The position numbers were made by a program, and so were the translations under genes. From NCBI GenBank assembly GCA_002189035.1, contig NEEC01000222.1, positions 1 to 63,870 on the forward strand: a stretch of DNA of 63,870 nt, given 5' to 3'. Of this stretch, positions 1 to 63,870 are shown piece after piece. Each line of letters starts with the position of its first letter. Position 1 is the first letter of the stretch. The notes under the pieces are model-generated. The model saw only the letters and a program-made list of their open reading frames with translations, had not been told where the DNA came from and did not search any database. The stretch comes from Utricularia gibba (Eukaryota; Streptophyta; Magnoliopsida; Lamiales; Lentibulariaceae).

Positions 1-118
1 GTTCGGTTTCGGGGTTGCCTACATGGTTTTTCAAGGAACATCTTCCCGTTTTGTGGTGGCTAGTCTCGCTGGGAACTTGTCCTGGACCTCGATTCTTTAT
101 GTCTATGAGGTCAAAAGG

Positions 119-126
119 ATGCAAAT
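119..126 (+). other. ATGCAAAT octamer in the satellite monomer
   Basis: ATGCAAAT is the canonical binding octamer of POU/Oct-type factors in animals. It occurs once in almost every monomer, within gatgcaaatcgatg, and is missing from class D (except the copy at 1253). Without knowing the organism, a functional reading is not supported; the exact match and its conservation are what is seen. Confidence 0.5.
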
Positions 127-173
127 CGATGAAAAAATTGATGCATTTGTTTAAATTACGATATCACGTGCAC
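125..173. other. Central palindrome cluster of the monomer (reference copy)
   Basis: Six perfect 6-base palindromes lie in 49 bases: ATCGAT (125-130), ATGCAT (141-146), TTTAAA (150-155), GATATC (160-165), CACGTG (165-170) and GTGCAC (168-173). The cluster recurs in most monomers. F loses ATCGAT, A loses GATATC and CACGTG, D loses ATCGAT, and monomers with tttcaatt or tttaatt lose TTTAAA. Confidence 0.8.
163..170 (+). other. ATCACGTG, match to the Cbf1/CDEI-type E-box
   Basis: ATCACGTG fits the budding-yeast CDEI consensus RTCACRTG and contains the bHLH E-box/G-box CACGTG. It recurs in all classes except typical A. Several B copies have ATCACATG, which also fits. This is a motif match only; a regional satellite array is not a point centromere. 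Confidence 0.4.
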
Positions 174-310
174 CCTACATGATTTTTTCAACAACTTACT
201 TTATACTTGAGGAGGTGGTCTTGGGGGCAAGAGGAACCAGACAACGGTCATATTAGGCTTGGGCCGAAAGTAAGTTGTAGCCCGGCAAAGAAAGTGTTGT
301 ATTTATTAAC

Positions 311-624
311 GTTCGGTTTTCAGGGTTGCCTACATGGTTTTCCAAGGAAAAGCTTTTCGTTTTGTGGCGGCCGCTCTCGCTGGGCACTTGGTCCGGGCCC
401 CTGATTCTTTATGGCTCATGAGGACAAAAGGATGCAAATCGATGAAAATAATGATGCATTTGTTTAAATTACGATGTCGCGTGCACCCCAAATGATTTTT
501 TTAACAACATACTTTATACATGAGGAGGCGGTCTTGGGGGGCACTTGGAACCGGAAAAAGATCAGCTTAGGCTTGGGCCGAAAGTAAGTTGTAGCCCGGC
601 AAAGAAAGTGATGTATTTATTATC
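311..624 (+). repeat. Class A monomer (reference copy)
   Basis: Class A opens every HOR unit (42 copies). Its left half has tttcagggttgcc, a HindIII site AAGCTT (350-355), a NotI site GCGGCCGC (367-374) and an ApaI site GGGCCC (395-400), then gctcatgaggac. Its right half has gatgtcgcgtgcacc, where other classes have gatatcacgtgcacc, then caccccaaatg and ggcacttggaacc. A is always preceded by a D or E monomer ending in attaac, with one exception (attatc at 12705-12710). Sub-variants differ in the NotI site (GCGGCTGC) and in cgcaggg versus cgctggg. Confidence 0.95.
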
Positions 625-1546
625 GTTCGGTTTACGGGGCTTCCTACATGGTTTTTCAAGGAACATCTTCTCGTTTTATGGCGGCCAGTCTCGCTGGGAA
701 CTTGGTCCTTGACCCTGGTTCTGTATGGCTAATGGGGTCAACCGGATGCAAATCGATGAAAAAAAAATGATGCATTTGTTTAAATTGCGATATCACATGC
801 ACCCCACATGATTTTTTCAACAACTTACTTTATACTTGAGGAGGCGATCTTAGGGTGCACCTCGAACAGGACAAAGGTAAGGTTTGGCTTGCGCCAAGAG
901 TTAGTTGTAGCCCGACAAAGAAAGTGATGTATTTATTATCGTTCGGTTTTTGGGGTTGCCTACATGGTTTTTCAAGGAATCTTCTCGTTTTGTGGCAGCC
1001 AGTCTCGCTGGGAGCTTTGTCCTGGACCCCGATTCTGTATGGCTCATGGGGTCAAAAGGATGCAAATCGATGAATACAATGATGCATTTGTTTCAATTAC
1101 GATATCACGTGCACCCCACATGATTTTTTTCGACAACTTACTTTATACATGGGGAGGCGGTCTTGGGGGGTACCTGGAACCGGAAAATGGTCAGCTTAGG
1201 CTTGGGCCGATAGTAAGTTGTAGCCCGCAAAGAAAGTGATGTATTTATTATCGTTCGGTTTTCGGGGTTGCCCTACATGGTTTTTCAAGGAACATCTTCT
1301 CGTTTTGTGGCAGTCTCGCTGGGAGCTTTGTCCTGGACCCGATTCTGTATGATGGGTCAAGGATGCAAATCGATGATGATGCATTTGTTTAAATTACGAT
1401 ATCACGTGCACCCTACATGATTTTTTCACAACTTACTTTATACTTGAGGAGGTGGTCTTGGGGGGCAAGAGGAACCAGAACGGTCATATTAGGCTTGGGC
1501 CGAAAGTAAGTTGTAGCCCGGCAAAGAAAGTGATGTATTTATTAAC
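311..1546 (+). repeat. HOR 4-mer A-B-C-D
   Basis: Monomer starts are A 311, B 625, C 941, D 1253. The D is atypical: it keeps ggatgcaaatcgatg and reaches 294 bases through several small losses (tatgatgggtcaagg, ttttttcacaac, cccgcaaag). Its C-to-E switch is still visible because caccctac and ggcaagagg follow. Confidence 0.9.
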
Positions 1547-1860
1547 GTTCGGTTTTTCAGGGTTGCCTACATGGTTTTCCAAGGAAAAGCTTTTCGTTTT
1601 GTGGCGGCTGCTCTCGCTGGGCACTTGGTCCGGGCCCCTGATTCTTTATGGCTCATGAGGACAAAAGGATGCAAATCGATGAAAATAATGATGCATTTGT
1701 TTAAATTACGATGTCGCGTGCACCCCAAATGATTTGTTTAACAACATACTTTATACATGAGGAGGCGGTCTTGGGGGGCACTTGGAACCGGAAAAAGATC
1801 AGCTTAGGCTTGGGCGAAAGTAAGTTGTAGCCCGGCAAAGAAAGTGATGTATTTATTATC

Positions 1861-1877
1861 GTTCGGTTTACGGGGGC
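1861..1877 (+). other. CENP-B-box-like sequence at the monomer start of B, C' and D
   Basis: Aligned with the core NTTCGNNNNANNCGGGN, the monomer start has TTCG, the central A and the last three G, but G for the C of CGGG: 8 of 9 core bases. Classes A, C, E, F, G and X lack the central A. The match could be chance and has no support beyond sequence and its place in a satellite. Confidence 0.3.
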
Positions 1878-2174
1878 TTCCTACATGGTTTTTCAAGGAA
1901 CATCTTCTCGTTTTATGGCGGCCAGTCTCGCTGGGAACTTGGTCCTTGACCCTGGTTCTGTATGGCTAATGGGGTCAACCGGATGCAAATCGATGAAAAA
2001 AAATGATGCATTTGTTTAAATTGCGATATCACATGCACCCCACATGATTTTTTCAACAACTTACTTTATACTTGAGGAGGCGATCTTAGGGTGCACTCGA
2101 ACAGGACAAAGGTAAGGTTTGGCTTGCGCCAAGAGTAGTTGTAGCCCGACAAAGAAAGTGATGTATTTATTATC
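1861..2174 (+). repeat. Class B monomer (reference copy)
   Basis: B follows A in 28 of the 42 units. Marks are tttacgggggcttcc at the left end, ttttatggcggccag, ccctggttctgtatgg, a long A run after atcgatg, aattgcgatatc, and a right half with gaggcgatcttagg, gtgcacctcgaacagg (here gtgcactcgaac) and cttgcgccaagag, ending attatc. Its right half is shared with class G and is followed by C, except in the trimers at 4357, 34312 and 44715. Confidence 0.93.
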
Positions 2175-2795
2175 GTTCGGTTTTTGGGGTTGCCTACATG
2201 GTTTTTCAAGGAACATCTTTCGTTTTGTGGCAGCCAGTCTCGCTGGGAGCTTGTCCTGGACCCCGATTCTGTATGGCTCATGGGGTCAAAAGGATGCAAA
2301 TCGATGAATACAATGATGCATTTGTTTCAATTACGATATCACGTGCACCCCACATGATTTTTTCGACAACTTACTTTATACATGGGGAGGCGGTCTTGGG
2401 GGGTACCTGGAACCGGAAAATGGTCAGCTTAGGCTTGGGCCGATAGTAAGTTGTAGCCCGGCAAGAAAGTGATGTATTTATTAACGTTCGGTTTTCGGGG
2501 TTGCCTACATGGTTTTTCAAGGAACATCTTCCCGTTTTGTGGTGGCTAGTCTCGGGAACTTTGTCCTGGACCTCGATTCTTTATGTCTTATGAGGTCAAC
2601 CGGATGCAAATCGATGAAAAAATTGATGCATTTGTTTAAATTACGATATCACGTGCACCCTACATGATTTTTTCAACAACTTACTTTATACTTGAGGAGG
2701 TGGTCTTGGGGGCAAGAGGAACCAGACAACGGTCATATTAGGCTTGGGCCGAAAGTAAGTTGTAGCCCGGCAAAGAAAGTGATGTATTTATTAAC

Positions 2796-4356
2796 GTTCG
2801 GTTTTCAGGGTTGCCTACATGGTTTTCCAAGGAAAAGCTTTTCGTTTTGTGGCGGCCGCTCTCGCAGGGCACTTGGTCCGGGCCCCTGATTCTTTATGGC
2901 TCATGAGGACAAAAGGATGCAAATCGATGAAAATAATGATGCATTTGTTTAAATTACGATGTCGCGTGCACCCCAAATGATTTTTTTAACAACATACTTT
3001 ATACATGAGGAGGCGGTCTTGGGGGGCACTTGGAACCGGAAAAAGATCAGCTTAGGCTTGGGCGAAAGTAAGTTGTAGCCCGGCAAAGAAAGTGATGTAT
3101 TTATTATCGTTCGGTTTACGGGGGTTCCTACATGGTTTTTCAAGGAACATCTTCTCGTTTTATGGGGCCAGTCTCGCTGGGAACTTGGTCCTTGACCCTG
3201 GTTTCTGTATGGCTAATGGGGTCAACCGGATGCAAATCGATGAAAAAAAATGATGCATTTGTTTAAATTGCGATATCACATGCACCCACATGATTTTTTC
3301 AACAACTTACTTTATACTTGAGGAGGCGATCTTAGGGTGCACCTCGAACAGGACAAAGGTAAGGTTTGGCTTGCGCCAAGAGTTAGTTGTAGCCCGACAA
3401 AGAAGTGATGTATTTATTATCGTTCGTTTTTGGGGTTGCTACATGGTTTTTCAAGGAACATCTTCTCGTTTTGTGGCAGCCAGTCTCGCTGGGAGCTTTG
3501 TCCTGGACCCCGATTCTGTATGGCTCATGGGGTCAAAAGGATGCAAATCGATGAATACAATGATGCATTTGTTTCAATTACGATATCACGTGCACCCCAC
3601 ATGATTTTTTCGACAACTTACTTTATACATGGGGAGGCGGTCTTGGGGGTACCTGGAACCGGAAAATGGTCAGCTTAGGCTTGGGCCGATAGTAAGTTGT
3701 AGCCCGGCAAAGAAAGTGATGTATTTATTATCGTTCGGTTTACGGGGGCTTCCTACATGGTTTTTCAAGGAACATCTTCTCGTTTTTGGCAGCCAGTCTC
3801 GCTGGGAGCTTTGTCCTGGACCCCGATTCTGTATGGCTCATGGGGTCAAAAGGATGCAAATCGATGAATACAATGATGCATTTGTTTCAAATTACGATAT
3901 CACGTGCACCCACATGATTTTTTCGACAACTTACTTTATACATGGGGAGGCGGTCTTGGGGGGTACCTGGAACCGGAAAATGGTCAGCTTAGGCTTGGGC
4001 CGATAGTAAGTTGTAGCCCGGCAAAGAAAGTGATGTATTTATTAACGTTCGGTTTTCGGGGTTGCCTACATGGTTTTTCAAGGAACATCTTCGTTTTGTG
4101 GTGGCTAGTCTCGCTGGGACTTTGTCCTGGACCTCGATTCTTTATGTCTTATGAGGTCAACCGGATGCAAATCGATGAAAAAATTGATGCATTTGTTTAA
4201 ATTACGATATCACGTGCACCCTACATGATTTTTTCAACAACTTACTTTATACTTGAGGAGGTGGTCTTGGGGGGCAAGAGGAACCAGACAACGGTCATAT
4301 TAGGCTTGGGCGAAAGTAAGTTGTAGCCCGGCAAAGAAAGTGATGTATTTATTAAC
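2796..4356 (+). repeat. HOR 5-mer A-B-C-C'-E
   Basis: Starts are A 2796, B 3109, C 3422, C' 3733, E 4047. This is the only complete ABCC'E unit in the window. It is the natural parent of ABCD, because merging the C' left part with the E right part yields D. Confidence 0.9.
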
Positions 4357-5280
4357 GTTCGGTTTTCAGGGTTGCCTACATGGTTTTCCAAGGAAAAGCT
4401 TTTCGTTTTGTGGCGGCCGCTCTCGCAGGGCACTTGGTCCGGGCCCCTGATTCTTTATGGCTCATGAGGACAAAAGGATGCAAATCGATGAAAATAATGA
4501 TGCATTTGTTTAAATTACGATGTCGTGCACCCCAAATGATTTTTTTAACAACATACTTTATACATGAGGAGGCGGTCTTGGGGGCACTTGGAACGGAAAA
4601 AGATCAGCTTAGGCTTGGGCGAAAGTAAGTTGTAGCCCGGCAAAGAAAGTGATGTATTTATTATCGTTCGGTTTACGGGGGCTTCCTACATGGTTTTTCA
4701 AGGAACATCTTCTCGTTTTATGGCGGCCAGTCTCGCTGGGAACTTGGTCCTTGACCCGATTCTGTATGGCTAATGGGGTCAACCGGATGCAAATCGATGA
4801 AAAAATGATGCATTTGTTTAAATTACGATATCACGTGCACCCCACATGATTTTTTCACAACTTACTTTATACTTGGGAGGCGGTCTTGGGTGCACTGAAC
4901 AGGAAAAGGTCAGGTTTGGCTTGGCCGATAGTAGTTGTAGCCCGACAAAGAAAGTGATGTATTTATTATCGTTCGGTTTCGGGTTGCCTACATGGTTTTT
5001 CAAGGAACATCTTCTCGTTTTGTGGTGGCCAGTCTCGCTGGGAACTTTGTCCTGGACCCGATTCTGTATGGCTCATGGGTCAACCGGATGCAAATCGATG
5101 AAAAAAATGATGCATTTGTTTTAAATTACGATATCACGTGCACCCTACATGATTTTTTCAACAACTTACTTTATACTTGAGGAGGCGGTCTTGGGGGGCA
5201 AGAGGAACCAGACAACGGTCAATTAGGCTTGGGCCGAAAGTAAGTTGTAGCCCGGCAAAGAAAGTGATGTATTTATTAAC
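4357..5280 (+). repeat. HOR 3-mer A-B-E
   Basis: Starts are A 4357, B 4666, E 4971. The right half of B is mixed: gtgcactgaacagg, then aaaaggtcagg and gccgatagtagttg, part B-like and part C-like. This fits a deletion joining B to the end of a C-type monomer. The E has gtggtggccag and ctgtatggctcatggg, so its left half is also mixed. Confidence 0.85.
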
Positions 5281-6521
5281 GTTCGGTTTTCAGGGTTGCC
5301 TACATGGTTTTCCAAGGAAAAGCTTTTCGTTTTGTGGCGGCCGTCTCGCTGGGCACTTGGTCCGGCCCCTGATTCTTTATGGCTCATGAGGACAAAAGGA
5401 TGCAAATCGATGAAAATAATGATGCATTTGTTTAAATTACGATGTCGCGTGCACCCCAAATGATTTTTTTAACAACATACTTTATACATGAGGAGGCGGT
5501 CTTGGGGGGCACTTGGAACCGGAAAAGGTCAGCTTAGGCTTGGGCCGAAAGTAAGTTGTAGCCCGGCAAAGAAAGTGATGTATTTATTATCGTTCGGTTT
5601 ACGGGGGCTTCCTACATGGTTTTTCAAGGAACATCTTCTCGTTTTGTGGCGGCCAGTCTCGCTGGGAACTTGGTCCTTGACCCTGGTTCTGTATGGCTAT
5701 GGGGTCAACCGGATGCAAATCGATGAAAAAAAATGATGCATTTGTTTAAATTACGATATCATGCACCCCACATGATTTTTTCAACAACTTACTTTATACT
5801 TGAGGAGGCGATCTTGGGTGCACCTGAACAGGACAAAGGTAAGGTTTGGCTTGGCCAAAGTAAGTTGTAGCCCGACAAAGAAAGTGATGTATTTATTATC
5901 GTTCGTTTTTGGGGTTGCTACATGGTTTTTCAAGGAACATCTTCTCGTTTTGTGGCAGCCAGTCTCGCTGGGAGCTTTGTCCTGGACCCCGATTCTGTAT
6001 GGCTCATGGGGTCAAAAGGATGCAAATCGATGAATACAATGATGCATTTGTTTCAATTACGATATCACGTGCACCCCACATGATTTTTTCGACAACTTAC
6101 TTTATACATGGGGAGGCGGTCTTGGGGGTACCTGGAACCGGAAAATGGTCAGCTTAGGCTTGGGCCGATAGTAAGTTGTAGCCCGGCAAAGAAAGTGATG
6201 TATTTATTATCGTTCGGTTTTCGGGGTTGCCTACATGGTTTTCCAAGGAAAATCTTTTCGTTTTGTGGTGGCTAGTCTCGCTGGGAACTTTGTCCTGGAC
6301 CCGATTCTTATGGCTTATGGGTCAACCGGATGCAAATCGATGAAAAAAATGATGCATTTGTTTAAATTACGATATCACGTGCACCCTACATGATTTTTTC
6401 AACAACTTACTTTATACTTGAGGAGGTGGTCTTGGGGGCAAGAGGGAACCAGACAACGGTCATATTAGGCTTGGGCCGAAAGTAAGTTTAGCCCGGCAAA
6501 GAAAGTGATGTATTTATTAAC
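5281..6521 (+). repeat. HOR 4-mer A-B-C-E
   Basis: Starts are A 5281, B 5592, C 5901, E 6212. The C starts GTTCGT rather than GTTCGG. The E has an A-like stretch ttttccaaggaaaatc before cttttcg, so the E left half borrows from A. Confidence 0.9.
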
Positions 6522-8688
6522 GTTCGGTTTTCAGGGTTGCCTACATGGTTTTCAAGGAAAAGCTTTTCGTTTTGTGGCGGCCGTCTCGCTGGGACTTGGT
6601 CCGGCCCTGATTCTTTATGGCTCATGAGGACAAAAGGATGCAAATCGATGAAAATAATGATGCATTTGTTTAAATTACGATGTCACGTGCACCCCAATGA
6701 TTTTTTAACAACATACTTTATACATGAGGAGGCGGTCTTGGGGGGCACTTGGAACCGGAAAAAGATCAGCTTAGGCTTGGGCCGAAGTAAGTTGTAGCCC
6801 GGCAAAGAAAGTGATGTATTTATTATCGTTCGGTTTTTGGGGTTGCCTACATGGTTTTTCAAGGAACATCTTCTCGTTTTGTGGTGCTAGTCTCGCTGGG
6901 AACTTGTCCTTGACCCCGATTCTGTATGGCTCATGGGGTCAACCGGATGCAAATCGATGAAAAAATGATGCATTTGTTTAAATTACGATATCACGTGCAC
7001 CCTACATGATTTTTTCGACAACTTACTTTATACATGGGGAGGCGGTCTTGGGGGGTACCTGGAACCGGAAAATGGTCAGCTAGGCTTGGGCCGATAGTAA
7101 GTTGTAGCCCGACAAATAAAGTAATGTATTTATTATCGTTCGGTTTTCGGCTGCCTAAATGCTTTTTGAAAGAACATCTTCTCGTTTTATGGCGGCCAGT
7201 CTCGCTGGGAACTTGGTCCTTGACCCTGGTTCTGTATGGCTCATGGGTCAACCGGATGCAAATCGATGAAAAAAAATGATGCATTTGTTTAAATTGCGAT
7301 ATCACGTGCACCCCACATGATTTTTTCAACAACTTACTTTATACTTGAGGAGGCGATCTTAGGGTGCACCTCGAACAGGACAAAGGTAGGTTTGGCTTGC
7401 GCCAAGAGTTAGTTGTAGCCCGACAAAGAAAGTGATGTATTTATTATCGTTCGGTTTTTGGGGTTGCCTACATGGTTTTTCAAGGAAATCTTCTCGTTTT
7501 GTGGCAGCCAGTCTCGCTGGGAGCTTTGTCCTGGACCCGATTCTGTATGGCTCATGGGGTCAAAAGGATGCAAATCGATGAATACAATGATGCATTTGTT
7601 TCAATTACGATATCACGTGCACCCACATGATTTTTTCGACAACTTACTTTATACATGGGGAGGCGGTCTTGGGGGGTACCTGGAACCGGAAAATGGTCAG
7701 CTTAGGCTTGGGCCGATAGTAAGTTGTAGCCCGGCAAAGAAAGTGATGTATTTATTATCGTTCGGTTTTCGGGGGCTTCCTACATGGTTTTTCAAGGAAC
7801 ATCTTCTCGTTTTGTGGCGCCAGTCTCGCTGGGAGCTTGTCCTGGACCCCGATTCTGTATGGCTCATGGGGTCAAAAGGATGCAAATCGATGAATACAAT
7901 GATGCATTTGTTTAAATTACGATATCACGTGCACCCCACATGATTTTTTCGACAACTTACTTTATACATGGGGAGGCGGTCTTGGGGGGTACCTGGAACC
8001 GGAAAATGGTCAGCTTAGGCTTGGGCCGATAGTAAGTTGTAGCCCGGCAAAGAAAGTGATGTATTTATTATCGTTCGGTTTTCGGGGTTGCCTACATGGT
8101 TTTTCAAGGAACATCTTCTCGTTTTGTGGCGCCAGTCTCGCTGGGAACTTTGTCCTGGACCCCGATTCTGTATGGCTCATGGGGTCAAAAGGATGCAAAT
8201 CGATGAATACAATGATGCATTTGTTTAAATTACGATATCACGTGCACCCCACATGATTTTTTCGAACAACTTACTTTATACATGGGGAGGGTCTTGGGGG
8301 CCTGGAACGGAAAATGGTCAGCTTAGGCTTGGGCCGATAGTAAGTTGTAGCCCGGCAAAGAAAGTGATGTATTTATTAACGTTCGGTTTTCGGGGTTGCC
8401 TACATGGTTTTTCAAGGAACTTTTCGTTTTGTGGTGGCTAGTCTCGCTGGGAACTTTGTCCTGGACCCGATTCTTATGGCTTATGGGTCAACCGGATGCA
8501 AATCGATGAAAAAAAATGATGCATTTGTTTAAATTACGATATCACGTGCACCCTACATGATTTTTTCAACAACTTACTTTATACTTGAGGAGGTGGTCTT
8601 GGGGGGCAAGAGGAACCAGACAACGGTCATATTAGGCTTGGGCCGAAAGTAAGTTTAGCCCGGCAAAGAAAGTGATGTATTTATTAAC
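6522..8688 (+). repeat. HOR 7-mer A-F-G-C-C'-X-E, first of the 7-mer domain
   Basis: Starts are A 6522, F 6828, G 7138, C 7449, C' 7760, X 8073, E 8381. The A reads gatgtcacgtgcacc, one step from the usual A form gatgtcgcgtg towards gatatcacgtg. X has gtggcgccag, the ambiguous middle between gtggcagccag and gtggcggccag. Confidence 0.92.
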
Positions 8689-10530
8689 GTTCGGTTTTCG
8701 GGTTGCCTACATGGTTTTCCAAGGAAAAGCTTTCGTTTTGTGGCGGCCGTCTCGCTGGGCACTTGGTCCGGGCCCCTGATTCTTATGGCTCATGAGGACA
8801 AAAGGATGCAAATCGATGAAAATAATGATGCATTTGTTTAAATTACGATGTCGCGTGCACCCCAAATGATTTTTTTAACAACATACTTTATACATGAGGA
8901 GGCGGTCTTGGGGGCACTTGGAACCGGAAAAAGATCAGCTTAGGCTTGGGCCGAAAGTAAGTTGTAGCCCGGCAAAGAAAGTGATGTATTTATTATCGTT
9001 CGGTTTTCGGGGGCTTCCTACATGGTTTTTCAAGGAACATCTTCTCGTTTTATGGCGGCCAGTCTCGCTGGGAACTTGGTCCTTGACATGGCTCATGGGG
9101 TCAACCGGATGCAAATCGATGAAAAAAAATGCATTTGTTTAAATTGCGATATCACGTGCACCCCACATGATTTTTTAACAACTTACTTTATACTTGAGGA
9201 GGCGATCTTGGGGCACCTCGAACAGGAAAAGGTAAGGTTTGGCTTGCGCCAAGAGTAGTTGTAGCCCGACAAAGAAAGTGATGTATTTATTATCGTTCGG
9301 TTTTGGGGTTGCCTACATGGTTTTTCAAGGAACATCTTCTCGTTTTGTGGCAGCCAGTCTCGCTGGGAGCTTTGTCCTGGACCCCGATTCTGTATGGCTC
9401 ATGGGGTCAAAAGGATGCAAATCGATGAATACAATGATGCATTTGTTTCAATTACGATATCACGTGCACCCCACATGATTTTTTCGACAACTTACTTTAT
9501 ACATGGGGAGGCGGTCTTGGGGGGTACCTGGAACCGGAAAATGGTCAGCTTAGGCTTGGGCCGATAGTAAGTTGTAGCCCGGCAAAGAAAGTGATGTATT
9601 TATTATCGTTCGGTTTACGGGGGCTTCCTACATGGTTTTTCAAGGAACATCTTCTCGTTTTGTGGCAGCCAGTCTCGCTGGGAGCTTTGTCCTGGACCCC
9701 GATTCTGTATGGCTCATGGGGTCAAAAGGATGCAAATCGATGAATACAATGATGCATTTGTTTAATTACGATATCACGTGCACCCCACATGATTTTTTCG
9801 ACAACTTACTTTATACATGGGGAGGCGGTCTTGGGGGGTACCTGGAACCGGAAAATGGTCAGCTTAGGCTTGGGCCGATAGTAAGTTGTAGCCCGGCAAA
9901 GAAAGTGATGTATTTATTATCGTTCGGTTTTCGGGGTTGCCTACATGGTTTTTCAAGGAACATCTTCTCGTTTTGTGGCGGCTAGTCGCTGGGCTTTGTC
10001 CTGGACCCGATTCTTTATGGCTATGGGTCAAAAGGATGCAAATCGATGAAAACAATGATGCATTTGTTTAATTACGATATCACGTGCACCCCACATGATT
10101 TTTTCGACAACTTACTTTATACATGGGGAGGCGGTCTTGGGGGTACCTGGAACCGGAAAATGGTCAGCTTAGGCTTGGGCCGATAGTAAGTTGTAGCCCG
10201 GCAAAGAAAGTGATGTATTTATTACGTTCGGTTTTCGGGGCCTACATGGTTTTCAAGGAAGCTTTCGTTTTGTGGTGGCTAGTCTCGCTGGGAACTTTGT
10301 CCTGGACCTCGATTCTTATGTCTTATGAGGTCAACCGGATGCAAATCGATGAAAAAAAATGATGCATTTGTTTAAATTACGATATCACGTGCACCCTACA
10401 TGATTTTTTCAACAACTTACTTTATACTTGAGGAGGTGGTCTTGGGGGCAAGAGGAACCAGACAACGGTCATATTAGGCTTGGGCGAAAGTAAGTTGTAG
10501 CCCGGCAAAGAAAGTGATGTATTTATTAAC
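8689..10530 (+). repeat. HOR 6-mer A-B-C-C'-X-E inside the 7-mer domain
   Basis: Starts are A 8689, B 8998, C 9295, C' 9608, X 9922, E 10226. B takes the place of the F-G pair. B also lacks about 11 bases around 9088 (cttgacatggctcatgg), so it is only 297 bases long. The join to E reads attacgttcg (10221-10230), missing the base that separates attaac from attatc. Confidence 0.92.
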
Positions 10531-11777
10531 GTTCGGTTTTCAGGGTTGCCTACATGGTTTTCCAAGGAAAAGCTTTTCGTTTTGTGGCGGCCGTCTCGCA
10601 GGGCACTTGGTCCGGCCCCTGATTCTTTATGGCTCATGAGGACAAAAGGATGCAAATCGATGAAAATAATGATGCATTTGTTTAAATTACGATGTCGCGT
10701 GCACCCCAAATGATTTTTTTAACAACATACTTTATACATGAGGAGGCGGTCTTGGGGGGCACTTGGAACCGGAAAAAGATCAGCTTAGGCTTGGGCCGAA
10801 AGTAAGTTGTAGCCCGGCAAAGAAAGTGATGTATTTATTATCGTTCGGTTTTGGGGTTGCCTACATGTTTTTTTCAAGGAACATCTTCTCGTTTTGTGGG
10901 CTAGTCTCGCTGGGAACTGGTCCTTGACCCCGATTCTGTATGGCTCATGGGTCAACCGGATGCAAATCGAAGAAAAAAAATGATGCATTTGTTTAAATTA
11001 CGATATCACGTGCACCCTACATGATTTTTTCGACAACTTACTTTATACATGGGGAGGCGGTCTTGGGGGTACCTGGAACCGGAAAATGGTCAGCGTAGGC
11101 TTGGGCCGATAGTAAGTTGTAGCCCGACAAATAAAGTAATGTATTTATTATCGTTCGGTTTTCGGGCTGCCTAAATGCTTTTTGAAAGAACATCTTCTCG
11201 TTTTATGGCGGCCAGTCTCGCTGGGAACTTGGTCCTTGACCCTGGTTCTGTATGGCTCATGGGGTCAACCGGATGCAAATCGATGAAAAAAAATGATGCA
11301 TTTGTTTAAATTGCGATATCACGTGCACCCACATGATTTTTTCAACAACTTACTTTATACTTGAGGAGGCGATCTTAGGGTGCACCTCGAACAGGACAAA
11401 GGTAAGGTTTGGCTTGCGCCAAGAGTTAGTTGTAGCCCGACAAAAAGTGATGTATTTATTATCGTTCGGTTTTTGGGGTTGCCTACATGGTTTTTCAAGG
11501 AACATCTTCTCGTTTTGTGGCAGCCAGTCTCGCTGGGAGCTTTGTCCTGGACCCCGATTCTGTATGGCTCATGGGGTCAAAAGGATGCAAATCGATGAAT
11601 ACAATGATGCATTTGTTTCAATTACGATATCACGTGCACCCCACATGATTTTTTCGACAACTTACTTTATACATGGGGAGGCGGTCTTGGGGGGTACCTG
11701 GAACCGGAAAATGGTCAGCTTAGGCTTGGGCCGATAGTAAGTTGTAGCCCGGCAAAGAAAGTGATGTATTTATTATC

Positions 11778-12710: not shown

Positions 12711-14849
12711 GTTCGGTTTTCGGGTTGCCTACATGGTTTTCCAAGGAAAAGCTTTCGTTTTGTGGCGGCCGCTCTCGCAGGGACTTGGTCCGGGCCCTGA
12801 TTCTTTATGGCTCATGGGACAAAGGATGCAAATCGATGAAAATAATGATGCATTTGTTTAAATTACGATATCACGTGCACCCAAATGATTTTTTTAACAA
12901 CTACTTTATACATGAGGAGGCGGTCTTGGGGGGCACTTGGAACCGGAAAAAGGTCAGCTTAGGCTTGGGCCGAAAGTAAGTTGTAGCCCGGCAAAGAAAG
13001 TGATGTATTTATTATCGTTCGGTTTTTGGGGTTGCCTACATGGTTTTTCAAGGAACATCTTCTCGTTTTGTGGTGGCTAGTCTCGCTGGGAACTTGGTCC
13101 TTGACCCGATTCTGTATGGCTCATGGGTCAACCGGATGCAAATCGAAGAAAAAAAATGATGCATTTGTTTAATTACGATATCGTGCACCCCATGATTTTT
13201 TCGACAACTTACTTTATACATGGGGAGGCGGTCTTGGGGGTACCTGGAACCGGAAAATGGTCAGCTAGGCTTGGGCCGATAGTAAGTTGTAGCCCGACAA
13301 AAAGTGATGTATTTATTATCGTTCGGTTTTCGGGCTGCCTACATGTTTTTTTCTTCTCGTTTTGTGGCGGCCAGTCTCGCTGGGAACTTGTCCTTGACCC
13401 TGATTCTGTATGGCTCATGGGGTCAACCGGATGCAAATCGATGAAAAAAATGATGCATTTGTTTAAATTACGATATCACGTGCACCCCACATGATTTTTT
13501 CAACAACTTACTTTATACTTGAGGAGGCGATCTTGGGTGCACCTGAACAGGAAAGGTAAGGTTTGGCTTGGCCAAGAGTAGTTGTAGCCCGACAAAGAAA
13601 GTGATGTATTTATTATCGTTCGTTTTTGGGGTTGCCTACATGGTTTTTCAAGGAACATCTTCTCGTTTTGTGGCAGCCAGTCTCGCTGGGAGCTTGTCCT
13701 GGACCCCGATTCTGTATGGCTCATGGGGTCAAAAGGATGCAAATCGATGAATACAATGATGCATTTGTTTCAATTACGATATCACGTGCACCCACATGAT
13801 TTTTTCGACAACTTACTTTATACATGGGGAGGCGGTCTTGGGGGGTACCTGGAACCGGAAAATGGTCAGCTTAGGCTTGGGCCGATAGTAAGTTGTAGCC
13901 CGGCAAAGAAAGTGATGTATTTATTATCGTTCGGTTTTCGGGCTTCCCTACATGGTTTTTCAAGGAACATCTTCTCGTTTTGTGGCAGCCAGTCTCGCTG
14001 GGAGCTTTGTCCTGGACCCCGATTCTGTATGGCTCATGGGGTCAAAAGGATGCAAATCGATGAAACAATGATGCATTTGTTTAATTACGATATCACGTGC
14101 ACCCACATGATTTTTTCGACAACTTACTTTATACATGGGGAGGCGGTCTTGGGGGTACCTGGAACCGGAAAATGGTCAGCTTAGGCTTGGGCCGATAGTA
14201 AGTTGTAGCCCGGCAAAGAAAGTGATGTATTTATTATCGTTCGGTTTTCGGGGTTGCCTACATGGTTTTTCAAGGAACATCTTCCGTTTTGTGGTGGCTA
14301 GTCTCGCTGGGAACTTTGTCCTGGACCCGATTCTTATGGCTCATGAGGTCAAAAGGATGCAAATCGATGAATACAATGATGCATTTGTTTAAATTACGAT
14401 ATCACGTGCACCCCACATGATTTTTTCGACAACTTACTTTATACATGGGGAGGCGGTCTTGGGGGTACCTGGAACCGGAAAATGGTCAGCTTAGGCTTGG
14501 GCCGATAGTAAGTTGTAGCCCGGCAAAGAAAGTGATGTATTTATTATCGTTCGGTTTTCGGGTTGCCTACATGGTTTTCCAAGGAACTTTTCGTTTTGTG
14601 GTGGCTAGTCTCGCTGGGAACTTTGTCCTGGACCCGATTCTTATGTCTTATGGGTCAACGGATGCAAATCGATGAAAAAAAATTGATGCATTTGTTTAAA
14701 TTACGATATCACGTGCACCCTACATGATTTTTTCAACATTACTTTATACTTGAGGAGGTGGTCTTGGGCAAGAGGAACCAGACAACGGTCATATTAGGCT
14801 TGGGCCGAAGTAAGTTTAGCCCGGCAAAGAAAGTGATGTATTTATTAAC
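12711..14849 (+). repeat. HOR 7-mer A-F-G-C-C'-X-E
   Basis: Starts are A 12711, F 13017, G 13321, C 13618, C' 13929, X 14239, E 14549. G lacks about 10-12 bases (acatgttttttt runs straight into cttctcg near 13341-13358) and is 297 bases long. The A has gatatcacgtgcacc, the form of the other classes, which suggests conversion. Confidence 0.9.
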
Positions 14850-23536: not shown

Positions 23537-24766
23537 GTTCGGTTTTCAGGGTTGCCTACATGGTTTTCCAAGGAAAAGCTTTTCGTTTTGTGGCGGCCGC
23601 TCTCGCTGGGCACTTGGTCCGGGCCCCTGATTCTTTATGGCTCATGAGGACAAAAGGATGCAAATCGATGAAAATAATGATGCATTTGTTTAAATTACGA
23701 TGTCGCGTGCACCCCAAATGATTTTTTTAACAACATACTTTATACATGAGGAGGCGGTCTTGGGGGGCACTTGGAACCGGAAAAAGATCAGCTTAGGCTT
23801 GGGCCGAAAGTAAGTTGTAGCCCGGCAAAGAAAGTGATGTATTTATTATCGTTCGGTTTACGGGGGCTTCCTACATGGTTTTTCAAGGAACATCTTCTCG
23901 TTTTATGGCGGCCAGTCTCGCTGGGAACTTGGTCCTTGACCCTGGTTCTGTATGGCTAATGGGTCAACCGGATGCAAATCGATGAAAAAAAATGATGCAT
24001 TTGTTTAAATTGCGATATCACGTGCACCCCACATGATTTTTTCAACAACTTACTTTATACTTGAGGAGGCGATCTTGGGTGCACCTCGAACAGGACAAAG
24101 GTAAGGTTTGGCTTGCGCCAAGAGTTAGTTGTAGCCCGACAAAGAAAGTGATGTATTTATTATCGTTCGGTTTTTGGGGTTGCCTACATGGTTTTTCAAG
24201 GAACATCTCTCGTTTTGTGGCAGCCAGTCTCGCTGGGAGCTTTGTCCTGGACCCCGATTCTGTATGGCTCATGGGGTCAAAGGATGCAAATCGATGAATA
24301 CAATGATGCATTTGTTTCAATTACGATATCACGTGCACCCACATGATTTTTTCGACAACTTACTTTATACATGGGAGGCGGTCTTGGGGGTACCTGGAAC
24401 CGGAAAATGGTCAGCTTAGGCTTGGGCCGATAGTAAGTTGTAGCCCGGCAAAGAAAGTGATGTATTTATTATCGTTCGGTTTACGGGGGCTTCCTACATG
24501 GTTTTTCAAGGAACATCTTCTCGTTTTGTGGCAGCCAGTCTCGCTGGGGCTTTGTCCTGGACCCCGATTCTGTATGGCTGGGGTCAAATACATTGATGCA
24601 TTTGTTTAAATTACGATATCACGTGCACCCTACATGATTTTTTCAACAACTTACTTTATATTTGAGGAGGTGGTCTTGGGGGGCAAGAGGAACCAGACAA
24701 CGGTCATATTAGGCTTGGGCCGAAAGTAAGTTGTAGCCCGGCAAAGAAAGTGATGTATTTATTAAC
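23537..24766 (+). repeat. HOR 4-mer A-B-C-D
   Basis: Starts are A 23537, B 23851, C 24165, D 24474. This is the first unit after the 7-mer domain. Its A follows E and has an intact NotI site with cgctggg. Confidence 0.92.
24474..24766 (+). repeat. Class D monomer, short C'/E fusion
   Basis: The left part is C' (tttacgggggcttcc, gtggcagccag). The right part is E (accctacatg, ttcaacaac, ggcaagaggaacc, attaac). At the join (about 24584-24594, gtcaaatacattgatgc) roughly 17-20 bases are missing relative to C' or E. The loss removes gatgcaaatcgatg with its ATGCAAAT and ATCGAT. D closes the ABCD 4-mer. Lengths run 277-299, and almost every copy has a different join. Confidence 0.9.
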
Positions 24767-53300: not shown

Positions 53301-55144
53301 GTTCGGTTTTCAGGGTTGCCTACATGGTTTTCCAAGGAAAAGCTTTTCGTTTTGTGGCGGCCGCTCTCGCAGGGCACTTGGTCCGGGCCCCTGATTCTTT
53401 ATGGCTCATGAGGACAAAAGGATGCAAATCGATGAAAATAATGATGCATTTGTTTAAATTACGATGTCGCGTGCACCCCAAATGATTTTTTTAACAACAT
53501 ACTTTATACATGAGGAGGCGGTCTTGGGGGGCACTTGGAACCGGAAAAGATCAGCTTAGGCTTGGGCCGAAAGTAAGTTGTAGCCCGGCAAAGAAAGTGA
53601 TGTATTTATTATCGTTCGGTTTTGGGGTTGCCTACATGGTTTTTCAAGGAACATCTTCTCGTTTTGTGGTGGCTAGTCTCGCTGGGAACATGGTCCTTGA
53701 CCCCGATTCTGTATGGCTCATGGGGTCAACCGGATGCAAATCGAAGAAAAAAAATGATGCATTGTTTAAATTACGATATCACGTGCACCCTACATGATTT
53801 TTTCGACAACTTACTTTATACATGGGGAGGCGGTCTTGGGGGGTACCTGGAACCGGAAAATGGTCAGCGTAGGCTTGGGCCGATAGTAAGTTGTAGCCCG
53901 ACAAAATAAAGTAATGTATTTATTATCGTTCGGTTTTCGGAAGCTGCCTAAATGCTTTTTGAAAGAACATCTTCTCATTTTATGGCGCCAGTCTCGCTGG
54001 GAACTTGGTCCTTGACCCTGGTTCTGTATGGCTCATGGGGTCAACCGGATGCAAATCGATGAAAAAAAATGATGCATTTGTTTAAATTGCGATATCACGT
54101 GCACCCCACATGATTTTTCAACAACTTACTTTATACTTGAGGAGGCGATCTTAGGGTGCACCTCGAACAGGACAAAGGTAAGGTTTGGCTTGCGCCAAGA
54201 GTTAGTTGTAGCCCGACAAAGAAAGTGATGTATTTATTATCGTTCGGTTTTTGGGGTTGCCTACATGTTTTTCAAGGAACATCTTCTCGTTTTGTGGCAG
54301 CCAGTCTCGCTGGGAGCTTTGTCCTGGACCCCGATTCTGTATGGCCCATGGGGTCAAAAGGATGCAAATCGATGAATACAATGATGCATTTGTTTCAATT
54401 ACGATATCACGTGCACCCCACATGATTTTTTCGACAACTTACTTTATACATGGGGAGGCGGTCTTGGGGGGTACCTGGAACCGGAAAATGGTCAGCTTAG
54501 GCTTGGGCCGATAGTAAGTTGTAGCCCGGCAAAGAAAGTGATGTATTTATTATCGTTCGGTTTACGGGGGCTTCCTACATGGTTTTTCAAGAACATCTTC
54601 TCGTTTTGTGGCAGCCAGTCTCGCTGGGAGCTTTGTCCTGGACCCCGATTCTGTATGGCTCATGGGGTCAAAAAGGATGCAAATCGATGAATACAATGAT
54701 GCATTTGTTTCAATTACGATATCACGTGCACCCCACATGATTTTTTCGACAACTTACTTTATACATGGGGAGGCGGTCTTGGGGGTACCTGGAACCGGAA
54801 AATGGTCAGCTTAGGCTTGGGCCGATAGTAAGTTGTAGCCCGGCAAAGAAAGTGATGTATTTATTACGTTCGGTTTCGGGGTTCCTACATGGTTTTTCAA
54901 GGAACATCTTCGTTTTGTGGCGCCAGTCTCGCTGGGACTTTGTCCTGGACCCCGATTCTGTATGGCTCATGGGGTCAAATATTGATGCATTTGTTTAAAT
55001 TACGATATCACGTGCACCCTACATGATTTTTTCAACAACTTACTTATATGAGGAGGGGTCTTGGGGGGCGGAACCGGACAACGGTCATTAGGCTTGGGCC
55101 GAAAGTAGTTTTAGCCCGGCAAAGAAAGTGATGTATTTATTAAC
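53301..55144 (+). repeat. HOR 6-mer A-F-G-C-C'-D
   Basis: Starts are A 53301, F 53614, G 53928, C 54242, C' 54555, D 54868. The D is 277 bases, the shortest monomer in the window. Its start is joined by ttattacgttcgg, and its right half is heavily worn (tacttatatgaggagggg, ggcggaaccggac, gtagttttag, about 55040-55115). Confidence 0.9.
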
Positions 55145-56661: not shown

Positions 56662-58514
56662 GTTCGGTTTTCAGGGTTGCCTACATGGTTTTCCAAGGAA
56701 AAGCTTTTCGTTTTGTGGCGGCGCTCTCGCTGGGCACTTGGTCCGGGCCCCTGATTCTTTATGGCTCATGAGGACAAAAGATGCAAATCGATGAAAATAA
56801 TGATGCATTTGTTTAAATTACGATGTCGCGTGCACCCCCAAATGATTTTTAACAACATACTTTATACATGAGGAGGCGGTCTTGGGGGCACTGGAACCGG
56901 AAAAAGTCAGCTTAGGCTTGGCCGAAAGTAAGTTGTAGCCCGGCAAAGAAAGTGATGTATTTATTATCGTTCGGTTTACGGGGGCTTCCTACATGGTTTT
57001 TCAAGGAACATCTTCTCGTTTTATGGCGGCCAGTCTCGCTGGAACTTGGTCCTTGACCCTGGTTCTGTATGGCTAATGGGGTCAACCGGATGCAAATCGA
57101 TGAAAAAAAATGATGCATTTGTTTAAATTGCGATATCACGTGCACCCCACATGATTTTTTCAACAACTTACTTTATACTTGAGGAGGCGATCTTAGGGTG
57201 CACCTCGAACAGGAAAGGTAAGTTTGGCTTGGCCAAGAGTTAGTTGTAGCCCGCAAAGAAAGTGATGTATTTATTATCGTTCGGTTTTGGGGTTGCCTAC
57301 ATGGTTTTTCAAGGAACATCTTCTCGTTTTGTGGCAGCCAGTCTCGCTGGGAGCTTTGTCCTGGACCCCGATTCTGTATGGCTCATGGGTCAAAAGGATG
57401 CAAATCGATGAATACAATGATGCATTTGTTTCAATTACGATATCACGTGCACCCCACATGATTTTTTCGACAACTTACTTTATACATGGGAGGCGGTCTT
57501 GGGGGTACCTGGAACCGGAAAATGGTCAGCTTAGGCTTGGGCCGATAGTAAGTTGTAGCCCGGCAAAGAAAGTGATGTATTTATTATCGTTCGGTTTTGG
57601 GGTTCCTACATGGTTTTTCAAGGAACATCTTCTCGTTTTGTGGCAGCCAGTCTCGCTGGGACTTTGTCCTGGACCCCGATTCTGTATGGCTCATGGGGTC
57701 AAAAGGATGCAAATCGATGAATAAATGATGCATTTGTTTAAATTACGATATCACGTGCACCCACATGATTTTTTCGACAACTTACTTTATACATGGGGAG
57801 GCGGTCTTGGGGGTACCTGGAACCGGAAAAATGGTCAGCTTAGGCTTGGCCGATAGTAAGTTGTAGCCCGGCAAAGAAAGTGATGTATTTATTATCGTTC
57901 GGTTTTGGGTTGCCTACATGGTTTTTCAAGGAACATCTTCTCGTTTTGTGGGCCAGTCTCGCTGGGACTTTGTCCTGGACCCCGATTCTGTATGGCTCAT
58001 GGGGTCAAAAGGATGCAAATCGATGAATACAATGATGCATTTGTTTCAATTACGATATCACGTGCACCCCACATGTTTTTTCGACAACTTACTTTATACA
58101 TGGGGAGGCGGTCTTGGGGGTACCTGGAACCGGAAAATGGTCAGCTTAGGCTTGGGCCGATAGTAAGTTGTAGCCCGGCAAAGAAAGTGATGTATTTATT
58201 ATCGTTCGGTTTTCGGGTTGCCTACATGGTTTTTCAAGGAACATCTTCCGTTTTGTGGTGGCTAGTCTCGCTGGGAACTTTGTCCTGACCTCGATTCTTT
58301 ATGTCTTATGAGGTCAACCGGATGCAAATCGATGAAAAAAAAATGATGCATTTGTTTAAATTACGATATCACGTGCACCCTACATGATTTTTTCAACAAC
58401 TTACTTTATACTTGAGGAGGGTCTTGGGGCAAGAGGAACCAGACAACGGTCATATTAGGCTTGGGCCGAAAGTAAGTTTTAGCCCGGCAAAGAAAAAGTG
58501 ATGTATTTATTAAC
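56662..58514 (+). repeat. HOR 6-mer A-B-C-C'-C-E
   Basis: Starts are A 56662, B 56969, C 57279, C' 57589, C-like 57897, E 58204. The fifth monomer has C-type gtcaaaagg, gaatacaatg and tttcaattacg, and occupies the X position. The C' has a merged left tip (ttttggggttcc). Confidence 0.88.
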
Positions 58515-60359
58515 GTTCGGTTTTCAGGGTTGCCTACATGGTTTTTCCAAGGAAAAGCTTTTCGTTTTGTGGCGGCGCTCTCGCAGGGCACTTGGTCCGG
58601 CCCCTGATTCTTTATGGCTCATGAGGACAAAAGGATGCAAATCGATGAAAATAATGATGCATTTGTTTAAATTACGATGTCGCGTGCACCCCAAATGATT
58701 TTTTTCAACATACTTTATACATGAGGAGGCGGTCTTGGGGGGCACTGGAACCGGAAAAAGGTCAGCTTAGGCTTGGGCCGAAAGTAAGTTGTAGCCCGGC
58801 AAAGAAAGTGATGTATTTATTATCGTTCGGTTTTGGGTTGCCTACATGGTTTTTCAAGGAACATCTTCTCGTTTGTGTGGCTAGTCTCGCTGGGAACATG
58901 GTCCTGACCCCGATTCTGTATGGCTCATGGGGTCAACCGGATGCAAATCGAAGAAAAAAAATGATGCATTTGTTTAAATTACGATATCACGTGCACCCTA
59001 CATGATTTTTTCGACAACTTACTTTATACATGGGGAGGCGGTCTTGGGGGTACCTGGAACCGGAAAATGGTCAGCGTAGGCTTGGGCCGATAGTAAGTTG
59101 TAGCCCGACAAAATAAAGTAATGTATTTATTATCGTTCGGTTTTCGGGCTGCCTAAATGTTTTTGAAAGAACATCTTCTCGTTTTATGGCGGCCAGTCTC
59201 GCTGGGAACTTGGTCCTTGACCCTGATTCTGTATGGCTCATGGGGTCAACCGGATGCAAATCGATGAAAAAAAATGATGCATTTGTTTAAATTACGATAT
59301 CACGTGCACCCCCACATGATTTTTCAACAACTTACTTTATACTTGAGGAGGCGGTCTTAGGGTGCACCTGGAACGGACAAAGGTCAGTTTGGCTTGGCCA
59401 AGAGTAAGTTGTAGCCCGACAAAGAAAGTGATGTATTTATTATCGTTCGGTTTTTGGGGTTGCCTACATGGTTTTTCAAGGAACATCTTCTCGTTTTGTG
59501 GCAGCCAGTCTCGCTGGGAGCTTTGTCCTGGACCCCGATTCTGTATGGCTCATGGGGTCAAAAGGATGCAAATCGATGAATACAATGATGCATTTGTTTA
59601 AATTACGATATCACGTGCACCCCACATGATTTTTTCGACAACTTACTTTATACATGGGAGGCGGTCTTGGGGTACCTGGAACCGGAAAATGGTCAGCTTA
59701 GGCTTGGGCCGATAGTAAGTTGTAGCCCGGCAAAGAAAGTGATGTATTTATTATCGTTCGGTTTCGGGGGCTTCCTACATGGTTTTTCAAGGAACATCTT
59801 CTCGTTTTGTGGCAGCCAGTCTCGCTGGGAGCTTTGTCCTGGACCCCGATTCTGTATGGCTCATGGGGTCAAAAGGATGCAAATCGATGAATACAATGAT
59901 GCATTTGTTTCAATTACGATATCACGTGCACCCCACATGATTTTTTCGACAACTTACTTATACATGGGAGGCGGTCTTGGGGGTACCTGGAACCGGAAAA
60001 TGGTCAGCTTAGGCTTGGGCCGATAGTAAGTTGTAGCCCGGCAAAGAAAGTGATGTATTTATTATCGTTCGGTTTACGGGGGCTTCCTACATGGTTTTTC
60101 AAGGAACATCTTCTCGTTTTTTGTGGCAGCCAGTCTCGCTGGGACTTTGTCCTGGACCCCGATTCTGTATGGCTCATGGGGTCAAAAAATGATGCATTTG
60201 TTTAAATTACGATATCACGTGCACCCTACATGATTTTTTCAACAACTTACTTTATATTGAGGAGGTGGTCTTGGGGGCAAGAGGAACCAGACAACGGTCA
60301 TATTAGGCTTGGGCCGAAAGTAAGTTGTAGCCCGGCAAAGAAAGTGATGTATTATTAAC
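58515..60359 (+). repeat. HOR 6-mer A-F-G-C-C'-D
   Basis: Starts are A 58515, F 58825, G 59135, C 59445, C' 59756, D 60067. Same composition and nearly the same length as 53301-55144 (1845 versus 1844 bases). The E before the A ends with an insertion (agaaaaagtgatg, near 58491-58503). Confidence 0.9.
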
Positions 60360-62220
60360 GTTCGGTTTTCAGGGTTGCCTACATGGTTTTCCAAGGAAAA
60401 GCTTTTCGTTTTGTGGCGGCTGCTCTCGCTGGGACTTGGTCCGGCCCCTGATTCTTTATGGCTCATGAGGAAAAAGATGCAAATCGATGAAAATAATGAT
60501 GCATTTGTTTAAATTACGATGTCGCGTGCACCCCAAATGATTTTTTAACAACATACTTTATACATGAGGAGCGGTCTTGGGGGGGCACTTGGAACCGGAA
60601 AAAGTCAGCTTAGGCTTGGGCGAAAGTAAGTTGTAGCCCGGCAAAGAAAGTGATGTATTTATTATCGTTCGGTTTCGGGCTTCCTACATGGTTTTTCAAG
60701 GAACATCTTCTCGTTTTATGGCGGCCAGTCTCGCTGGGAACTTGGTCCTTGACCCTGGTTCTGTATGGCTCATGGGTCAACCGGATGCAAATCGATGAAA
60801 AAAAATGATGCATTTGTTTAAATTGCGATATCACGTGCACCCCACATGATTTTTTCAACAACTTACTTTATACTTGAGGAGGCGATCTTAGGGTGCACCT
60901 CGAACAGGACAAAGGTAAGGTTTGGCTTGCGCCAAGAGTTAGTTGTAGCCCGACAAAGAAAGTGATGTATTTATTATCGTTCGGTTTTTGGGGTTGCCTA
61001 CATGGTTTTTCAAGGAACATCTTCTCGTTTTGTGGCAGCCAGTCTCGCTGGGAGCTTTGTCCTGGACCCCGATTCTGTATGGCTCATGGGGTCAAAAGGA
61101 TGCAAATCGATGAATACAATGATGCATTTGTTTCAATTACGATATCACGTGCACCCCACATGATTTTTTCGACAACTTACTTTATACATGGAGGCGGTCT
61201 TGGGGGGTACCTGGAACCGGAAAATGGTCAGCTTAGGCTTGGCCGATAGTAAGTTGTAGCCCGGCAAAGAAAGTGATGTATTTATTATCGTTCGGTTTCG
61301 GGGCTTCCTACATGGTTTTTCAAGGAACATCTTCTCGTTTTGTGGCAGCCAGTCTCGCTGGGAGCTTTGTCCGGACCCCGATTCTGTATGGCTCATGGGG
61401 TCAAAAGGATGCAAATCGATGAATAAATGATGCATTTGTTTAAATTACGATATCACGTGCACCCACATGATTTTTTTCGACAACTTACTTTATACATGGG
61501 GAGGCGGTCTTGGGGGTACCTGGAACCGGAAAATGGTCAGCTTAGGCTTGGGCCGATAGTAAGTTGTAGCCCGGCAAAGAAAGTGATGTATTTATTATCG
61601 TTCGGTTTTGGGGGCTTCCTACATGGTTTTTCAAGGAACATCTTTCTCGTTTTGTGGCAGCCAGTCTCGCTGGGACTTTGTCCTGGACCCCGATTCTTAT
61701 GGCTCATGGGTCAAAAGGATGCAAATCGATGAATACAATGATGCATTTGTTTCAATTACGATATCACGTGCACCCCACATGATTTTTTCGACAACTTACT
61801 TTATACATGGGGAGGCGGTCTTGGGGTACCTGGAACCGGAAAATGGTCAGCTTAGGCTTGGGCGATAGTAAGTTGTAGCCCGGCAAAGAAAGTGATGTAT
61901 TTATTAACGTTCGGTTTTCGGGTTGCCTACATGGTTTTTCAAGGAACATCTTCCGTTTTGTGGTGGCTAGTCTCGCTGGGAACTTTGTCCTGGACCTCGA
62001 TTCTTATGTCTTATGAGGTCAACCGGATGCAAATCGATGAAAAAAATTGATGCATTTGTTTAAATTACGATATCACGTGCACCCTACATGATTTTTTCAA
62101 CAACTTACTTTATACTTGAGGAGGTGGTCTTGGGGGGCAAGAGGAACCAGACAACGGTCATATTAGGCTTGGGCCGAAAGTAAGGTTTAGCCCGGCAAAG
62201 AAAGTGATGTATTTATTAAC
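60360..62220 (+). repeat. HOR 6-mer A-B-C-C'-C'-E
   Basis: Starts are A 60360, B 60667, C 60979, C' 61290, C' 61600, E 61909. Two consecutive C'-type monomers (both with ggcttcc left tips) replace the C'-X pair. Confidence 0.9.
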
Positions 62221-63870
62221 GTTCGGTTTTCAGGGTTGCCTACATGGTTTTCCAAGGAAAAGCTTTTCGTTTTGTGGCGGCCGCTCTCGCAGGGCACTTG
62301 GTCCGGGCCCCTGATTCTTTATGGCTCATGAGGACAAAAGGATGCAAATCGATGAAAATAATGATGCATTTGTTTAAATTACGATGTCGCGTGCACCCCA
62401 AATGATTTTTTTAACAACATACTTTATACATGAGGAGGCGGTCTTGGGGGGCACTTGGAACCGGAAAAAGATCAGCTTAGGCTTGGGCCGAAAGTAAGTT
62501 GTAGCCCGGCAAAGAAAGTGATGTATTTATTATCGTTCGGTTTTTGGGGTTGCCTACATGGTTTTTCAAGGAACATCTTCTCGTTTTGTGGTGGCTAGTC
62601 TCGCTGGGAACATGGTCCTTGACCCCGATTCTGTATGGCTCATGGGTCAACCGGATGCAAATCGAAGAAAAAAAATGATGCATTTGTTTAAATTACGATA
62701 TCACGTGCACCCTACATGATTTTTTCGACAACTTACTTTATACATGGGAGGCGGTCTTGGGGGTACCTGGAACCGGAAAATGGTCAGCGTAGGCTTGGGC
62801 CGATAGTAAGTTGTAGCCCGACAAATAAAGTAATGTATTTATTATCGTTCGGTTTTCGGAAGCTGCCTAAATGCTTTTTGAAAGAACATCTTCTCATTTT
62901 ATGGCGGCCAGTCTCGCTGGGAACTTGGTCCTTGACCCTGGTTCTGTATGGCTCATGGGGTCAACCGGATGCAAATCGATGAAAAAAAATGATGCATTTG
63001 TTTAAATTGCGATATCACGTGCACCCCACATGATTTTTTCAACAACTTACTTTATACTTGAGGAGGCGATCTTAGGGTGCACCTCGAACAGGACAAAGGT
63101 AATTTGGCTTGCGCCAAGAGTTAGTTGTAGCCCGACAAAGAAAGTGATGTATTTATTATCGTTCGGTTTTTTGGGGTTGCCTACATGGTTTTTCAAGGAA
63201 CATCTTCTCGTTTTGTGGCAGCCAGTCTCGCTGGGAGCTTTGTCCTGGACCCCATTCTGTATGGCCCATGGGGTCAAAAGGATGCAAATCGATGAATACA
63301 ATGATGCATTTGTTTTCAATTACGATATCACGTGCACCCCACATGATTTTTTCGACAACTTACTTTATACATGGGGAGGCGGTCTTGGGGGTACCTGGAA
63401 CCGGAAAATGGTCAGCTTAGGCTTGGGCCGATAGTAAGTTGTAGCCCGGCAAAGAAAGTGATGTATTTATTATCGTTCGGTTTTAGGGCTTCCTACATGG
63501 TTTTTCAAGGAACATCTTCTCGTTTTGTGGCAGCCAGTCTCGCTGGGAGCTTTGTCCTGGACCCCCGATTCTGTATGGCTCATGGGGTCAAAAGGATGCA
63601 AATCGATGAATAATGATGCATTTGTTTCAATTACGATATCACGTGCACCCCACATGATTTTTCGACAACTTACTTTATACATGGGGAGGCGGTCTTGGGG
63701 GTACCTGGAACCGGAAAATGGTCAGCTTAGGCTTGGCCGATAGTAAGTTGTAGCCCGGCAAAGAAAGTGATGTATTTATTATCGTTCGGTTTTGGGGTTG
63801 CCTACATGGTTTTTCAAGGAACATCTTCGTTTTGTGGTGGCTAGTCTCGCTGGGAACTTTGTCCTGGACC
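62221..63870 (+). repeat. HOR unit A-F-G-C-C'-(X), cut by the window end
   Basis: Starts are A 62221, F 62535, G 62847, C 63161, C' 63475, then 87 bases from 63784 with gtggtggctag, consistent with X or E. The unit is probably a 7-mer or 6-mer continuing beyond the window, so the array does not end here. Confidence 0.9.

Follow-up and report, generated by a model that had tools for sequence, protein, structure and literature searches.

Higher-order repeats of the alpha-satellite kind consist of diverged monomer classes that are arranged in repeating multi-monomer units. The assembly of such sequence from noisy long reads touches on two described phenomena. Passages of the HiCanu paper report that collapsed repeats yield a mosaic consensus with possible frameshifts, and that Canu run permissively mixes similar repeat copies (PMC7545148). 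The Canu paper, in its passage on falcon_sense correction, describes an O(ND) alignment followed by the choice of the highest-weight path through a DAG (PMC5411767).

The DNA analysed here, referred to as the window, is the whole of contig C8 (63,870 bp) from an assembly totalling 100.09 Mb in 516 contigs. It consists of a satellite array in which many copies lack single bases, and these missing bases are very probably a consensus artefact of mixed repeat copies and not a biological feature. The artefact is an ordinary one of a known kind, and small deletions in individual copies of the array are not trustworthy as biology.

Organisation of the satellite array

The array has a tandem period of 312 and comprises six monomer classes (A to F), with five outlying copies at the clustering threshold used. 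Assigned by nearest class, the monomers form 42 units, namely 12 EBCA, 9 DBFCAAA, 8 DBCA and 13 others, so that both diverged monomer classes and repeated multi-monomer units, the marks of a higher-order repeat, are found on the contig. Because the classes recur on other contigs, with identity of up to 99.7% (class B), the satellite family appears to be genuine, and so do its classes and higher-order units. The array and three monomers that illustrate its erosion are as follows.

1 to 63,870, no strand assigned: tandem satellite array of contig C8, 207 complete monomers of about 312 bp and an 87-bp tail
54,868 to 55,144, forward strand: class E monomer of 277 bp, the shortest in the window, with 11 deletions relative to its class consensus
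24,474 to 24,766, forward strand: class E example of a deletion of about 20 bp with copy-specific junction letters
1,253 to 1,546, forward strand: copy nearest class D, which lacks several multi-base pieces where variable columns cluster

The deletion of about 20 bp is common to the copies of class E while its junction letters vary from copy to copy, as would be expected if reads with and without the deletion had been merged. A 23-base form of the junction used as a query gave four matches across the assembly, all four of them in the window. Class E (window positions 24,474 to 60,359) also looks like a mosaic with a C-like start, an A-like first half and a D-like second half, and the deletion sits at the switch.

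Single-base losses at class-variable and invariant sites

Relative to the class consensus, the 207 copies carry 12.06 deletions, 1.79 insertions and 7.73 substitutions per kb, each counted as an event. Single bases make up 595 of the 740 deletions, with lengths of one, two, three and four or more bases in the proportion 595:102:23:20; these length tallies, like those of class-consensus columns, cover 202 of the 207 copies and omit the five outlying ones. The main loss and permutation counts take in all 207 copies, each assigned to its nearest class, and consider bases without an equal neighbour (run-1 bases), columns of class-dependent length being excluded.

The original prediction held that bases are missing preferentially where the monomer classes differ, and the count of deletions at class-variable versus invariant sites bears this out. 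With homopolymers left out, a single base has been lost at 178 of 7,676 class-variable and at 26 of 19,279 invariant site-copies, a 17-fold ratio with a bootstrap range over units of 11.6 to 27.6. When the variable label was permuted over the 178 columns, the observed count was reached in none of 20,000 trials. The ratio was 14-fold and 21-fold in the two halves of the contig and 17.5 after removal of class E and seven reassigned copies, and the 26 invariant losses divide into 15 of 11,799 site-copies away from variable sites and 11 of 7,480 adjoining one. Loss also depends on how rare a copy's own base is among the 207 copies: from the rarest to the commonest own bases the counts are 55/476, 66/1,612, 20/525, 29/3,137 and 8/1,926, a gradient from 11.6% down to 0.4%. 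The idea that a loss needs at least three alternative bases was discarded, with losses at 164 of 7,092 two-base and 14 of 584 three-or-more-base site-copies.

Eleven places had been quoted in the original prediction as examples of such losses. The short form is present at all eleven, with coordinates right to within one or two bases; as evidence, however, the examples are of unequal value. Compared with their own class, five (at 9,760, 7,814, 14,281, 10,221 and 54,862) have lost a base without an equal neighbour, while the other six (at 3,283, 7,620, 4,116, 1,224, 1,426 and 6,781) are also shortenings of runs of two to four bases and, being explained equally well by homopolymer shortening, are not diagnostic. 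The five, and one of the six for comparison, are listed below.

9,760 to 9,767, forward strand: class A copy without its variable C, TTTCAATT shortened to TTTAATT, non-homopolymer
7,814 to 7,821, forward strand: class A copy without its variable A, GGCAGCC shortened to GGCGCC, non-homopolymer
14,281 to 14,286, forward strand: class A copy without a T, CTTCTCG shortened to CTTCCG, in a column that varies inside class D
10,221 to 10,225, forward strand: class A copy without its variable T, ATTATC shortened to ATTAC
54,862 to 54,866, forward strand: class A copy, the variable T of the previous example lost again (coordinates one base early)
3,283 to 3,290, forward strand: within its class equally a run of CCCC reduced to CCC, hence without diagnostic value

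The column at 14,281 shows no difference among the six class consensuses but varies within class D only, for which reason its loss was scored as invariant, that is, against the finding.

The six ambiguous examples raise the question of homopolymer-length errors of noisy long reads, which might appear at variable sites as many class differences sit in runs. Longer runs do lose most (58 of 152 for 6-base runs in length-variable columns, for example), and in seven monomers counted in stretch L001 of contig C477, which carries the same satellite, the four single-base losses are all located in runs, with run-1 sites unaffected. The 17-fold enrichment, however, was obtained with all runs excluded, and within runs the variable ones lose 232 of 5,318 versus 21 of 2,935 for invariant ones, a comparison in which run lengths are unmatched. 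The run-1 count rules out homopolymer error as the sole cause, and as the explanation of the pattern it is very improbable.

Sister contigs with the same satellite

The satellite is also found on at least three further contigs, C477, C513 and C39, for which losses were counted in 75 of 99 control monomers, those in clusters of at least four. Run-1 bases at variable sites are missing in 178 of 7,676 cases in the window, in 13 of 1,333 on C513 and C39 together, and in 5 of 1,606 on C477. The corresponding losses at strictly invariant sites are 1 of 1,905 on C513 and C39 and 0 of 2,299 on C477, and at invariant sites adjoining a variable one 1 of 1,480 and 0 of 1,785, respectively.

The strongest control is the direct comparison of C39 with C477, one pair of stretches with about 7.2 kb in common, in which the reference is the sister sequence and not a class consensus, the variable-site labels still coming from the class alignment. 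If mixed-copy consensus is the cause, near-identical assembled sequences are predicted to differ by losses rather than by substitutions, and the two stretches indeed differ by 19 substitutions and 67 indel events. Relative to C477, C39 lacks 12 of 695 variable versus 0 of 1,453 invariant run-1 bases (Fisher 1.2e-6) and 0 of 1,279 run-1 bases in the part unmapped to monomers. Within runs it lacks 19 variable, 2 invariant and 5 unmapped bases, and 10 longer pieces are missing besides. Conversely, C477 lacks 19 pieces present in C39, including one variable and one invariant run-1 base. When L001 is compared with itself at a shift of 3,773, neighbouring C477 units differ by one substitution and 25 indel events over 6.2 kb, which points to leftover indel error on C477 too. 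A strongly eroded patch of monomers (3, 6, 12 and 3 deletions) lies inside a cleaner stretch of the same contig at L003:6449-7673.

In the units on C477, C513 and C39, about 1.2 kb of non-satellite sequence breaks the array at one shared position. One copy of this insert, at L001:3340-4515, contains a gag frame of the copia type (PF14223, E 2.3e-27), and gaps of like size are found at the same place in L002 to L005; the insert has apparently been amplified together with the satellite unit. It is absent from the window, where monomers abut without a gap. Mixed-copy consensus predicts less erosion of monomers beside unique sequence; erosion does increase away from the retrotransposon insert, but as a trend only (Spearman 0.16 with p 0.11 in 99 copies, 0.22 with p 0.06 in 71 copies).

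Consensus from mixed noisy reads as the probable origin

The consensus artefact most likely arose in the following way. Noisy long reads of different monomers would have been aligned together at the read correction stage by an aligner that permits indels only. Where the reads disagree, each alternative base would be scored as an insertion beside a deletion, and where no alternative reaches half of the coverage, the best path would skip the position. Polishing would then leave the array unmended, probably through ambiguous read mapping.

This course of events was simulated with 25 noisy reads per monomer, a variable share of them from other classes, under four consensus rules. Read errors were 9/4/1.2% for insertion, deletion and substitution; these settings, the alignment scores and the half-coverage path score (link count less half of the coverage) were assumed, and class E was omitted as source and as partner. 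With all reads from the own class, 0 of 5,559 variable run-1 bases were lost. With 50% own reads, the best path through an indel-only DAG gave 12.8 deletion, 1.6 insertion and 5.2 substitution events per kb, a loss of 3.96% at variable and 0.16% at invariant sites, a rarity gradient of 14.8, 11.4, 3.8, 0.9 and 0.3%, and deletion lengths of 501:86:16:1 (observed 595:102:23:20). With 60% own reads, the same rule gave a variable loss of 1.90%, an invariant loss of 0.09% and 6.5 deletions per kb. With 2.32% of variable and 0.13% of invariant bases lost and 12.06 deletions per kb, the window lies between the two settings, and it exceeds both in insertions (1.79) and substitutions (7.73).

The error spectrum is thus reproduced by a consensus of mixed noisy reads under the assumed settings, with too few substitutions and long deletions. 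At an own share of 0.50 the simulation overstates the loss in the second rarity bin (11.4% versus 4.1% observed), substitutions fall short (5.2 versus 7.7 per kb; at invariant run-1 bases, 0.03% versus 0.29%), and so do deletions of at least four bases (1 of 604 versus 20 of 740 observed). True within-class variation may supply the missing substitutions and long deletions.

The original prediction had named a consensus vote in which each alternative base loses to a gap. Its attribution to mixed repeat copies is supported by the site preference, the rarity gradient, the excess of deletions and the sister contigs, but a vote on mismatch-allowing alignments fails in simulation and is out as modelled, since it lost fewer bases and, at each of the four own shares, produced insertions in excess of deletions, with alignment scores held constant. 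Voting on indel-only alignments gave a fairly good fit (14.0 deletion, 4.7 insertion and 6.4 substitution events per kb at an own share of 0.50). Both the indel-only vote and the best path fit, and the exact assembly program is therefore not fixed by these results; in the simulations, the decisive ingredient is probably the indel-only alignment and not the bare vote.

Microdeletion by repair and shared descent as improbable alternatives

A biological route to the same pattern would be real microdeletion, in which a mispaired base is removed when unlike monomers exchange strands in gene conversion. A preference for variable sites and for rare bases would be expected of such a process as well, because rare bases end up mispaired more frequently. 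Yet C477 and C39/C513 show lower and differing doses of loss for the same satellite, substitutions between C39 and C477 are far outnumbered by indel events, every run-1 loss of C39 falls at a variable site, and read mixing in simulation nears the observed spectrum without any repair. A repair pathway that would remove the mispaired base alone is not known to us, and this route is extremely unlikely.

A further route would be shared descent, in which the amplification of units multiplies a small number of true deletions. The original prediction had dismissed shared descent on the grounds that the same site is lost again and again in different classes. This recurrence is partly borne out: loss in at least two classes was found for 11 of 63 variable columns (1 of 115 invariant ones), and loss in at least one class for 41 of 63 variable and 13 of 115 invariant columns. 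Although some losses are common within one class (C-class position 226 is missing in 16 of 37 copies and D-class position 280 in 9 of 24), and some, such as that at D-class position 280, could be inherited, shared descent is hardly credible as the general explanation, given that 44 of 95 distinct variable-site deletions in runs of one or two are singletons, that the bias persists among class-sites with loss in no more than 10% of copies (78 variable versus 15 invariant losses), and that several columns are lost in more than one class. A kinship test had little discriminating power: carriers of a shared variable-site deletion were no closer kin (mean z 0.15), and carriers of a shared substitution were only slightly closer (-0.22).

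Ordinary genes in the same assembly

The plastid contig C516 holds a complete rbcL of 475 aa with its frame intact, which marks the source as a land plant. Among the histone matches listed, 27 of 33 are without an internal stop, including all six full-length top-scoring ones; the other six carry internal stops, which introns could explain. The rbcL gene and the histone matches, a small sample of which rbcL is plastid, show no sign of an assembly-wide deletion load. Partial rbcL-like matches lie off the plastid contig at G000:C2:3012594-3013507, C515:58344-58736, C451:6448262 and C375:416578; these matches, several of them with internal stops, are perhaps plastid DNA that has moved to other genomes of the cell.

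Implications and comparison with known systems

For studies of satellite evolution, indel rates and small-deletion spectra that draw on noisy long-read assemblies, the artefact may pass for biology. Its signature, a loss at class-variable, non-homopolymer sites that increases as the base becomes rarer, can be tallied in the assembly itself, without reads, and so serves as a read-free diagnostic that flags unreliable arrays.

In organisation, the array resembles alpha-satellite in having diverged monomer classes in multi-monomer units, and it differs in being a plant family of 312 bp in which EBCA, DBFCAAA and DBCA units are mixed in one contig. As to the origin of the missing bases, it is like the mosaic consensus of collapsed repeats in that reads of similar copies appear to have been merged, that the consensus would represent no true copy and that indels would be introduced; the passages concerned treat alleles and repeat copies generally, whereas the loss on C8 is measured site by site in a satellite (PMC7545148). 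The likeness extends to correction of the falcon_sense type, in that an indel-only best path, with an assumed half-coverage scoring, nears the error spectrum of the array in simulation (PMC5411767).
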